Source: Maricaulis sp. (lineage in GTDB: Bacteria; Pseudomonadota; Alphaproteobacteria; Caulobacterales; Maricaulaceae). From it: 64,000 nucleotides of DNA. The notes under the pieces are model-generated. The model saw only the letters and a program-made list of their open reading frames with translations. It was not told the origin of the DNA and ran no database searches. The stretch is taken from the NCBI RefSeq assembly GCF_017642925.1, contig NZ_JAEPOL010000010.1, positions 1 to 64,000 of the forward strand. Direction: 5' to 3'. A program made the translations under genes and the position numbers. Below, one piece after another: positions 3,084 through 62,880 of the stretch (positions are counted from its first letter, which is position 1; the number at the start of each line of letters is the position of its first letter).

Positions 3084-3230
3084 TCCTCCCCCTTGATGGG
3101 GGAGGGGGACCGCAGCTTTGCTGCGGTGGAGGGGGTGGGGGCGAGGTTTCTGCAAGCTATCGAGCACCGGGGTTCACCCCTTCCGACCCAGCGCTGCGCG
3201 CTGGGCCACCTTCCCCATCAAGGGGAAGGA
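3084..3230. repeat. Dispersed repeat, about 147 bp (family 2)
   Basis: Terminal palindromic arms (CCTTGATGGG type at both ends, inverted) enclose a GC-rich hairpin next to each end and a less conserved middle. Read on the minus strand it aligns along its whole length with 34185-34330, including ends, hairpin positions and the CTCGCCCCCACC core block. It fills most of the 306-base gap between the LuxR-type gene and the CPBP gene. Confidence 0.75.
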
Positions 3231-3269
3231 TGACGCGGTGCGACGACGCGGTTCCCTTCTGCAGTATTC

Positions 3270-44642: not shown

Positions 44643-47056
<2,414 letters not shown>

Positions 47057-47068
47057 GGACCATCGCGG

Positions 47069-47236
47069 GTGTCATCCCGGATGGATGCCCGGCGAAGGCC
47101 GGGCGCAAGTCCGGGACCTATAATCCCGGTGCCCATCCAGCTGTCGCGGGCAGCGGACCTGCTTCCGGCCGGCAATAGCGCGTATGGGTCCCGGCCCTGC
47201 GGCCCGCCTGCGCGGGCCGTGCGGCCGGGATGACAG
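47069..47236. repeat. Composite inverted repeat (family 1) downstream of ligA
   Basis: It starts GTGTCATCCCGGATGG and ends GGCCGGGATGACA. On the minus strand it matches 44663-44836 along most of its length. It lies between the convergent ligA and lipoprotein genes, where it may end transcription from both sides. Confidence 0.75.
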
Positions 47237-61449: not shown

Positions 61450-62250
61450 TCACTTCGCGGTCCATCCACCGTCAACGCTGATCCAGGACCCATTCATATT
61501 GGCTCCCGCGTCGGAGACAAGATAGAGCAGCGCGCCGGCGAGCTGGTCATAGGTGACAAACTGTTTGGTCGGCTGGGCAGCGAGCAGGACGTCGCGCACG
61601 ACCTCTTCCTCGGTAATCCCGCGCGCCTTTGCGGTGTCGCCGATCTGGTTCTCCACCAGCGGCGTCTTCACATAGCCCGGGCAGATCGCATTGCAGGTGA
61701 TACCCTGTTCGGCGACTTCCAGCGCCAGCGTCTTGGTGAAGCCCATCACCCCGTGCTTGGCGGCCACATAGGCCGACTTGAAGGGCGAGGCGACGAGACC
61801 GTGGGCCGAGGCGAGGTTGACGATCCGCCCCCTGCCCTGGCGCTTCATGATCGGCAGGGCGGCCTTCGCGCCGTGGAAGACCGAGGTGAGGTTGATGGCG
61901 ATGATGGCATCCCACTTGTCTTCCGGGAATTCATCGACCGGTGCGACATGCTGGATCCCGGCATTATTCATCAGAATGTCCAGGCGCCCGAACTCCCGCT
62001 TGGCGAACGCCACCATGTCGGCAATCTCACCGGATTTCAGCATGTTGGCGGGGTGGTAGCGCACCTCGACGCCGTGCCGTTCCGCGATCCCGGCGCGTTC
62101 TTTCTCGATCGCATCCGCATCGCCCAGACCGTTGATGATCACGTTCGCGCCGTTGGCCGCGAGGGCGTCGGCCATGGCGGCGCCGATGCCGCTTGTAGAG
62201 CCGGTGACAATGGCCACCTGGCCGGTCAGATCGGTGCGGATGGAAGACAT
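61450..62250 (-). CDS. bdhA: 3-hydroxybutyrate dehydrogenase, SDR family
   Basis: 266 residues. NAD-binding TGSTSGIGAAMADALAANGA near 17, ILMNNAGIQHVAPVDEFPED near 93 and catalytic SAHGLVASPFKSAYVAAKHG with Ser, Tyr and Lys near 147-164. The IQHVAPVDEFP segment and the C-terminal GSWISVDGGWTAK are typical of D-3-hydroxybutyrate dehydrogenases, which link polyhydroxybutyrate breakdown to acetoacetate. The ATG has AAAGGTGG upstream. Confidence 0.87.
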   Translation of the reverse strand: MSSIRTDLTGQVAIVTGSTSGIGAAMADALAANGANVIINGLGDADAIEKERAGIAERHGVEVRYHPANMLKSGEIADMVAFAKREFGRLDILMNNAGIQHVAPVDEFPEDKWDAIIAINLTSVFHGAKAALPIMKRQGRGRIVNLASAHGLVASPFKSAYVAAKHGVMGFTKTLALEVAEQGITCNAICPGYVKTPLVENQIGDTAKARGITEEEVVRDVLLAAQPTKQFVTYDQLAGALLYLVSDAGANMNGSWISVDGGWTAK

Positions 62251-62332: not shown

Positions 62333-62364
62333 CCGTCATCCCCCGTCTTGTCCGGGGGACCTCG
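62333..62364. repeat. Left 32-bp terminal repeat of the GIY-YIG unit
   Basis: CCGTCATCCCCCGTCTTGTC followed by a GGGGGACCTCG end. It is the inverted match of 62849-62880 at 31 of 32 positions. The nuclease stop codon (62336-62338) and its last eight codons, ending SPGQDGG, lie within it. Confidence 0.85.
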
Positions 62365-62704
62365 TCTTCCATGGTCGCAGGTCTATTTCCGGATTCGTTG
62401 GAACGGCCCACAACGTGTCCCATAGATCCTCCCAGCGAGGATTGGCCGCCTCGATCAGGTTTATCTTCCACTGGCGCGGCCACTTTTTGATGCGCTTTTC
62501 CCGCTTGATGGCATCGACAATCAATCCATGGGCTTCCCACCATACAAGGCTGGTGCAGCGATATTTCCGCGTGAAGCCGGAGGCCGTGCCGTTCTTGTGC
62601 TGCTGGATGCGCCAGAGGAGGTGTGCGGTAACGCCGGTGTAGATCGCACCGTCGAACCGGTTGGCCATCATGTAGACGGCAATGGTCGCCTCTCGATCCT
62701 TCAT
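62336..62704 (-). CDS. GIY-YIG nuclease domain protein
   Basis: 122 residues. AVYMMANRFDGAIYTGVTAH at about 9-28 matches the GIY-YIG core with variant residues (VYM...IYTG). The catalytic-helix Arg is in LLWRIQQHKNG, and VWWEAHGLIVDAIKREKRIK contains the conserved Glu-containing segment. This is the small stand-alone class (COG2827-like). The last residues, RSPGQDGG, are encoded by the flanking repeat. There is no ribosome binding site; an AT-rich promoter-like stretch (62704-62732) suggests a very short leader. Function is unproven; a role in moving the flanking repeats is my inference. Confidence 0.85.
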   Translation of the reverse strand: MKDREATIAVYMMANRFDGAIYTGVTAHLLWRIQQHKNGTASGFTRKYRCTSLVWWEAHGLIVDAIKREKRIKKWPRQWKINLIEAANPRWEDLWDTLWAVPTNPEIDLRPWKTRSPGQDGG

Positions 62705-62742
62705 GCAATTTATGATTGTATATATTTAAATCCCCACCAAGC

Positions 62743-62788
62743 GCCGTCATCCCACGGTCCCTGCGTCAGCAGGGATCCGGGGGACCTC
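62743..62788. repeat. Internal variant copy of the terminal repeat
   Basis: It begins CCGTCATCCCACGG and ends TCCGGGGGACCTCAG like the left repeat, but holds an extra hairpin (TCCCTGCGTCAGCAGGGA). It has the same orientation as the left copy and the opposite orientation to the copy at 62849-62880. Confidence 0.7.
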
Positions 62789-62848
62789 AGCCAACCCTTG
62801 AGAGAATGCGCGCGGAGAGCAGCAAGTCTTGTTTTCAAACGGGTTAGT

Positions 62849-62880
62849 CGAGGTCCCCCGGACAAGCCGGGGGATGACGG
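62849..62880. repeat. Right 32-bp terminal repeat of the GIY-YIG unit
   Basis: The reverse complement of the left repeat with one mismatch (G for T at position 14 of the left copy). With the variant copy at 62743 it makes an inverted pair enclosing 60 bases. ATTTTTTG follows at 62881, so with its hairpin it also looks like an intrinsic terminator. Confidence 0.85.

Follow-up and report, generated by a model that had tools for sequence, protein, structure and literature searches.

The locus considered here raises the question of why a small nuclease gene should stand between near-identical, inverted copies of a palindromic repeat. The gene lies in the window, that is, the whole 64,000-nucleotide stretch of Maricaulis DNA that was analysed, and it encodes a GIY-YIG protein; the initial annotation had seen in it a possible non-RAYT analogue, in which such an enzyme recognises and spreads palindromic repeats. 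The answer that we favour, with a probability of roughly 0.7, is that the gene and its repeats form a widespread two-part unit, made of a small stand-alone GIY-YIG nuclease and a cognate REP/REPIN family, which functions like RAYT/REPIN. The repeats of this unit often appear to belong to the CGTC-tagged superfamily, and the nuclease is probably related to UPF0213, as judged from its profile.

Table 1. Features of the nuclease locus and its neighbours (positions in the window).
Feature	Position	Strand	Remarks
GIY-YIG nuclease gene, 122 aa	62336..62704	-	PF01541; conserved residues Y11, Y22, G24, R32, H36, E69, N88
Left REP monomer	62333..62364	+	CCGTCA tag followed by a hairpin and a CCTC tail; the 3' end of the gene lies inside it
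REP variant with longer inner hairpin	62744..62788	+	First half of the right-hand REPIN
Right REP monomer	62849..62880	-	Inverted copy of the left REP, 31/32 bases; second half of the REPIN
Full REPIN: a pair of REPs in opposite orientation, tags facing outward	62744..62880		Upstream of the gene; layout recurs at 9/12 other own-genome core sites
Left neighbour, short-chain dehydrogenase (SDR)	61450..62250	-	Served to locate the orthologous site of each relative
Right neighbour, peroxide stress protein YaaA	62913..63698	-	

The layout of the locus is REP, gene, REPIN (Table 1), with a single REP on the left flank and a full REPIN on the right. The inverted repeat described in the initial annotation is indeed present, and when its arms were extended to 62333-62367 and 62846-62880, 33 of 35 bases were identical. 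The arms enclose the nuclease ORF and a variant repeat, as had been stated, the right-hand side being now refined to a complete REPIN in which the CCGTCATCC of the variant begins at 62744; the stop codon and the last eight codons of the nuclease do lie inside the left arm. The best inverted match between the flanks at this locus scored 30, compared with a maximum of 14.5 among 375 control windows. The further claim that GTCATCC palindromes occur elsewhere in the window held in part: the bare word is not significantly enriched (18 occurrences for 12.1 expected, a number reached in 9 of 100 shuffles), whereas REP-like hairpins of other families are found at about position 156, at 44665-44834 and at 47071-47234. 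Among the window hairpins (these three and 3190-3234), a CTTCCCC-type palindrome that resembles the repeat class of DUF559 genes was also noticed.

The 122-residue protein matched the PF01541 domain with an E-value of 2.7e-13 (50.5 bits, for a cut-off of 22.6). Among 60 sequences, G24, R32 and N88 are invariant and Y11, Y22, H36 and E69 are conserved in at least 90%; we take these positions to be catalytic-type residues of GIY-YIG enzymes. On the basis of the Pfam domain and of these residues, the protein is a member of the GIY-YIG superfamily. The values of dN/dS were between 0.02 and 0.19 in ten of eleven pairs, the eleventh being saturated, which indicates that the gene is under purifying selection. 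An AlphaFold model (pLDDT 85, pTM 0.76), whose last ten residues are unreliable, gave no match below an E-value of 0.001 in a structural search of the PDB, and the best fold matches, all weak, were UPF0213, At-HIGLE, UvrC and Slx1 entries. By sequence profile, two UPF0213 structures were matched with E-values of 4.6e-10 and 3.8e-7. No match was obtained in the PHROG phage families, nor in NCBIfam for three GIY-YIG proteins, one of which was tested with slightly inexact ends.

When the three copies of the repeat in the window were folded as single-stranded DNA, hairpins were obtained after the CCGTCA tag (z values of -1.7, -3.0 and -3.0), the tag itself being unpaired and preceding the stem in all three. 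The right arm has a stem of 8 bp and a loop of 5, the left arm 7 and 7, and the middle copy is longer. In the consulted passages of PMC3733652, CGTC-tagged REPs are described as having an unpaired CGTC (or TGTC, CCTC) tag before the hairpin, stems of 8-9 bp, loops of 4-5 and, for most of them, not all, a CCA-type tail. The window family shares the tag; its tail is CCTC and not of the CCA type, and ATCCA-type tails were seen at S. meliloti, Shinella, Azospirillum and Aeromonas loci. The window tags are CCGTCA and not GTAG, the tag of RAYT-type REPs. In one clade of nucleases, characterised by the motif GALYVGR or a close variant of it, repeat tags of the TTTTTCCCGG or CTTTCCCCGG type replace CGTC, as judged by eye at loci L005, L006, L073, L080, L093 and L107.

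The exact core TCCGGGGGACCTC is present in 21 copies in its own genome, where the reversed control is absent. The twelve other core sites of this genome consisted of nine two-REP REPINs with tags outward and three single REPs; eight core sites in other genomes, which had been chosen for two cores close together, were REPINs too. Dispersal of the window family thus takes place mostly as head-to-head dimers, in the same way as for CGTC-tagged REPs. A derivation of the REPIN spacers from gene ends was considered and rejected, no likeness being found on inspection by eye.

The own Maricaulis genome (G000, 3.61 Mb in 35 contigs) contains six GIY-YIG paralogs. Palindromic repeats were seen by eye near all six, and a matching pair was detected by score for five, the exception being L003. 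The repeat families of these paralogs mostly differ, and those of L002 and L003, which are 82% alike, are related. When 60 relatives were added, a homologue was present in 50 of the 61 genomes. Each gene was scored by aligning its two 250-bp flanks and taking the best local match, whether inverted or direct; repeats were called paired at a score of at least 16, a threshold fixed after the comparison with the 375 control windows.

By this measure, paired repeats flank 83 of the 113 close homologues with both flanks (four of 117 were excluded for short flanks, and four of 146 homologue matches for want of DNA); among the remaining ORFs of these loci, they flank 18 of 1119. The latter figure is, if anything, too high, since the 11 top-scoring control ORFs include one unlisted GIY-YIG gene and two DUF559 genes. 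When the controls were restricted to ORFs separated from each neighbour by 100 bp or more, 3 of 154 were paired. More distant or partial GIY-YIG matches were paired in 15 of 25 cases. A strict scan for exact hairpins, which is insensitive, found them on both sides of 34 of the 113 genes and 7 of the 1119 ORFs, and on either side of 58 and 151, respectively; no clear rule emerged from it for the orientation of the nearest repeat. At L107 (G010:C1:2163882-2164700), a tandem pair of very similar nuclease genes was observed, with their repeats between them.

The association extends beyond the relatives of Maricaulis. Across Pseudomonadota, 96 of 299 genomes had a match at an E-value of 1e-10, and 21 of 27 loci from newly seen genomes were paired (10 of 11 in other families of the class and 11 of 16 in other classes of the phylum), three of the initial 30 having been excluded as coming from genomes already used. 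Named loci were paired in 48 of 76 cases, one of 77 having been excluded for short flanks, as compared with 3 of 248 other ORFs; six of the 76 duplicate earlier contigs (L237-L241 and L247, five of them paired), and 43 of 70 are paired without them. Nine of ten loci hand-picked from 34 records of a plasmid collection were paired, the exception being Rhizobium tumorigenes; they include those of Azospirillum lipoferum, Sinorhizobium meliloti, Novosphingobium aromaticivorans and Neisseria gonorrhoeae. The first three of these species and a Neisseria are named in the CGTC text of PMC3733652, and the repeat that flanks the N. gonorrhoeae gene fits the description given there of CGTC-1 (8-bp stem, 4-base loop), which the same text equates with dRS3. 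Some plasmid-filed records (NZ_CP119140.1, NZ_AP026896.1 and CP090106.1, 2.2 to 4.9 Mb) look chromosomal, judging from their size. At this step, the expectation of the initial annotation that homologues would be flanked by repeats is supported across the phylum, well above control; against it stand the 30 of 113 close homologues in which paired repeats were absent by score.

In order to relate the repeats to the enzymes, protein identity was compared with the similarity of flanking repeats for 114 genes, that is, 6441 pairs, repeats being considered as shared at a score of at least 16. A synteny filter set aside 52 different-genome pairs with similar DNA at 300-1500 bp. Among the non-syntenic pairs from different genomes with at least 70% protein identity, repeats were shared in 77 of 84. 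Synteny may have escaped detection for some of the pairs located close to contig ends. The corresponding figures for different-genome pairs were 124 of 374 at 60-70% identity and 411 of 5802 below 60%. Within genomes, paralogs below 60% identity shared repeats in 12 of 103 cases, and all ten pairs with at least 80% identity did so, one of them being a tandem pair and the others being listed at different sites. For the filtered different-genome pairs, the Mantel coefficient was 0.46, and none of 2000 permutations was as high (maximum 0.11); the sequences are not independent and several assemblies are fragmented, relatedness being handled only by the synteny filter and the permutation. According to these data, the repeat type tracks the lineage of the nuclease rather than the host.

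Furthermore, sites with and without the gene could be compared. The SDR gene was located in 17 of 19 Maricaulis genomes. The nuclease stands beside it in four (G000, G013, G015 and G018) and was not found there in 13, including G008, which has the closest SDR protein (98%), and G001 and G016, in which repeats are present at the site. In 11 of these 13 relatives (L037, L040-L043, L045, L047, L048 and L050-L052), the SDR-yaaA gap contains a short, conserved ORF of some 30 codons, seen by eye after a GC-rich hairpin. The spacer of the window site differs throughout from that of the relatives, so the site is not a clean insertion. When the compared sites, whose flanks are much diverged, were inspected by eye, no recognisable target-site duplication was seen. 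A homologue of the window clade with 84% identity and the same repeats is found in G006 at a different site, neither SDR nor YaaA being found within 6.1 kb of it.

In A. lipoferum, the gap between sufB and sufC measures 617 bp and contains the gene with its REPINs; in A. ramasamyi and A. oryzae, it lacks the gene and measures 91 and 87 bp, respectively. In Shinella PSBB067 another GIY-YIG gene occupies the same gap, and in Sphingomonas parapaucimobilis it is occupied by a DUF559 gene (L201:1796-2206) with repeats of its own on either side. In Sphingobium TomMM7A and TomTYG46 the gene is located between two REPs, and one symmetric solo REP occupies the gene site in TomTYG64 and TomTYG74 (L204 and L203). 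The latter looks like a deletion scar in which the outer halves of the left and right REPs have been joined; these solo REPs could be either gene losses or target sites. At the compared site of Sphingobium TYG72, a CTCTCC-type repeat was found. The genes inspected sit among intergenic REPs, and gene-less sites in relatives, for which the initial annotation had recommended a search, exist at the Maricaulis SDR site, between sufB and sufC and in Sphingobium.

Some of these observations would also fit a homing-type passenger, that is, a nuclease which uses REPs as landing sites and is the guest of a REPIN, the REPs themselves spreading otherwise. At several loci the gene between two REPs resembles an enlarged REPIN spacer, REPs far outnumber the genes, and the solo REPs of Sphingobium TYG64 and TYG74 occupy the same site. 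However, the repeat family follows the nuclease lineage between genomes, which points to co-diversification and not to a free choice of hosts, and no match to Y1_Tnp, the enzyme class searched, was present in the own genome; we consider this explanation unlikely. Alternatively, the nuclease could be a domesticated housekeeping enzyme that processes REP hairpins or cruciforms in repair, in replication or at transcript ends, the flanking REPs being autoregulatory and the gene not mobile. The purifying selection, the weak resemblance in fold to UvrC and Slx1, the overlap of the last codons with the REP in the window and the 52 pairs set aside as syntenic, of which 22 have at least 80% protein identity, are in agreement with such a role. 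It is made quite improbable by the patchy presence of the gene (4 of 17 SDR-bearing genomes of the genus at this site, 96 of 299 genomes of the phylum), by the similar copies that carry the same repeats at different sites and by its occurrence at the sufB-sufC site in A. lipoferum but not in A. ramasamyi or A. oryzae.

The abundance of the repeats was then compared with the presence of the gene. Cores of the GTCATYCCSG type numbered 5264 in the 61 genomes, compared with 520 for the reversed control; the pattern occurs in all 61, in some of them (e.g. G026 and G051) no more often than the reversed control. The median excess of GTCAT-type cores per Mb was 27.1 in the 50 genomes with a GIY-YIG match and 14.7 in the 11 without (Mann-Whitney p 0.0013). 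Gene number and core excess were weakly correlated (rho 0.16, p 0.22), and these values do not support a simple dependence of repeat number on gene dosage. Six genomes with neither a GIY-YIG nor a DUF559 match still had an excess of 1.8 to 26 GTCAT-type cores per Mb. For three repeat families in the 19 Maricaulis genomes, density was higher where the cognate clade was present (p 0.029, 0.10 and 0.038; combined 0.006); when G000 was left out, no per-family density correlation was significant (p 0.14-0.18). G010 has 39 copies of the core of the window family (family 1) and no close homologue, and family 3 reaches 6.7 per Mb in G018, which lacks the cognate gene. Repeat abundance thus follows gene presence weakly. 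The initial annotation had proposed this comparison and had held that repeats equally abundant in gene-less relatives would speak against a link: repeats do persist in such relatives and gene number is a poor guide, whereas the higher density with the cognate clade favours the link.

In addition, a second nuclease family shows a similar arrangement. DUF559 genes are present in 44 of the 61 genomes. Thirty loci were taken from a longer list, one per genome (L157-L186), and the repeats were paired at 16 of them (Fisher p 6.5e-19 when compared with the 18 of 1119). All 16 carry CTCCC/GGGAG-type palindromes, as judged by eye. Exact hairpins of the CGTC type lie on both sides of 34 of 113 GIY-YIG genes and of none of the 30 DUF559 genes; those of the CTCCC type, conversely, on both sides of none of the 113 and of five of the 30. 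VsrA, a DUF559 protein of Caulobacter, is linked in the consulted part of PMC12907096 to SOS induction when a methyltransferase is missing; the word palindrom does not occur in PMC12907096. Neither this second family with its own repeat class nor the paralogs with different repeat families had been anticipated in the initial annotation.

A passive gathering of REPs and accessory genes in permissive intergenic sites, functionally unlinked, might be supposed from the sheer number of REPs (5264 cores against 520) and from the nuclease genes that lack paired repeats. It is highly improbable and was rejected on the basis of the matched control (3 of 154 gap-matched ORFs against 83 of 113 nuclease genes) and of the cognate pairing, repeat identity following nuclease lineage and the DUF559 and GIY-YIG genes carrying different repeat classes. 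That the REPs are ordinary ones driven by RAYT/IS200, the nuclease being incidental, is extremely improbable: Y1_Tnp matches exist in 12 of the 61 genomes, yet the core pattern is present in all 61, the other 49, own genome included, have no such match, and the 2013 survey, according to its consulted passages (PMC3733652), detected no gene for a tyrosine transposase with CGTC repeats on its flanks. The action of a RAYT in trans was likewise rejected, no Y1_Tnp (RAYT-type) domain being found in G000, where the 122-residue protein carries GIY-YIG only.

The two-part unit remains the preferred reading. The tie between gene and repeats, the lineage pairing, the different sites and the lack of Y1_Tnp matches in the own genome support in part the non-RAYT analogue proposed in the initial annotation, its binding, cleavage and spreading activities being conjectural. 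We infer that the nuclease cuts its cognate hairpin and that spread occurs via repair. According to this scheme, the enzyme would recognise the hairpin or cruciform of its cognate REP and would nick or cut close to the tag. Host repair or recombination would then copy REPs to new intergenic sites and, occasionally, the nuclease gene located between two REPs would be copied along. GIY-YIG enzymes would thereby play for CGTC REPs the role that RAYTs play for GTAG REPs, by hydrolysis and host repair and with no covalent tyrosine intermediate. The chances are about even that small hydrolytic nucleases constitute a class of REP-mobilising systems of their own, in which CGTC-type REPs have their missing partners in GIY-YIG enzymes and the CTCCC-type repeats have theirs in DUF559 (Vsr-like) enzymes; at least two unrelated folds would then have independently taken the RAYT role.

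According to the consulted passages of PMC3733652, published in 2013, there are two large superfamilies of REPs, and the CGTC-tagged one was reported to be without a dedicated transposase. The term GIY does not occur in the text-searched parts of PMC3733652 and of two later papers on CGTC-tagged REPs, and no link of GIY-YIG or DUF559 to REPs was found by title or abstract in the literature searched, which contains no bioRxiv preprints. Such nucleases may supply the partner so far missing from a major bacterial repeat class and thereby help it to persist and spread, and with a lineage-matched nuclease partner the enzyme question of CGTC REPs becomes directly testable. If this reading is true, it adds a non-transposase route for the dissemination of tiny repeats in bacterial genomes. 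A possible function would also be indicated for two gene families that the consulted records name only by domain or in generic terms, as 'GIY-YIG nuclease family protein', 'excinuclease ABC subunit C' or 'DUF559 domain-containing protein'.

Among known systems, the 'REPtrons' formed by RAYT (TnpA-REP) and GTAG REPINs combine a small nuclease gene with a REP family of its own on its flanks, the repeats following the enzyme lineage. The present units resemble them in the single small nuclease gene, its own flanking REPs, the dispersal as inverted dimers and the lineage-linked repeats; they differ by a GIY-YIG enzyme in place of the Y1 HUH tyrosine enzyme and by CGTC or related tags in place of GTAG. 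Free-standing GIY-YIG homing endonucleases, such as the Seg proteins of phage T4, are stand-alone and patchy and may move by cutting and repair. The stand-alone gene, the patchy distribution and possibly the cut-and-repair movement are common to both, but dispersed palindromes flank the gene here whereas a conserved target gene adjoins it there. With UPF0213, the N-terminal domain of UvrC and Slx1, our enzyme shares the UPF0213 profile, weak fold matches and conserved catalytic-type residues; no report of cognate repeats for these proteins was found in the literature searched. Finally, in comparison with the CGTC-tagged REPs, including dRS3 of Neisseria, as described in the consulted passages of PMC3733652, the succession of tag, hairpin and tail and the head-to-head dimers are alike, the window family being divergent by its CCTC tail and an imperfect outer stem; no dedicated enzyme had been found for them according to those passages, whereas a nuclease partner is proposed here.
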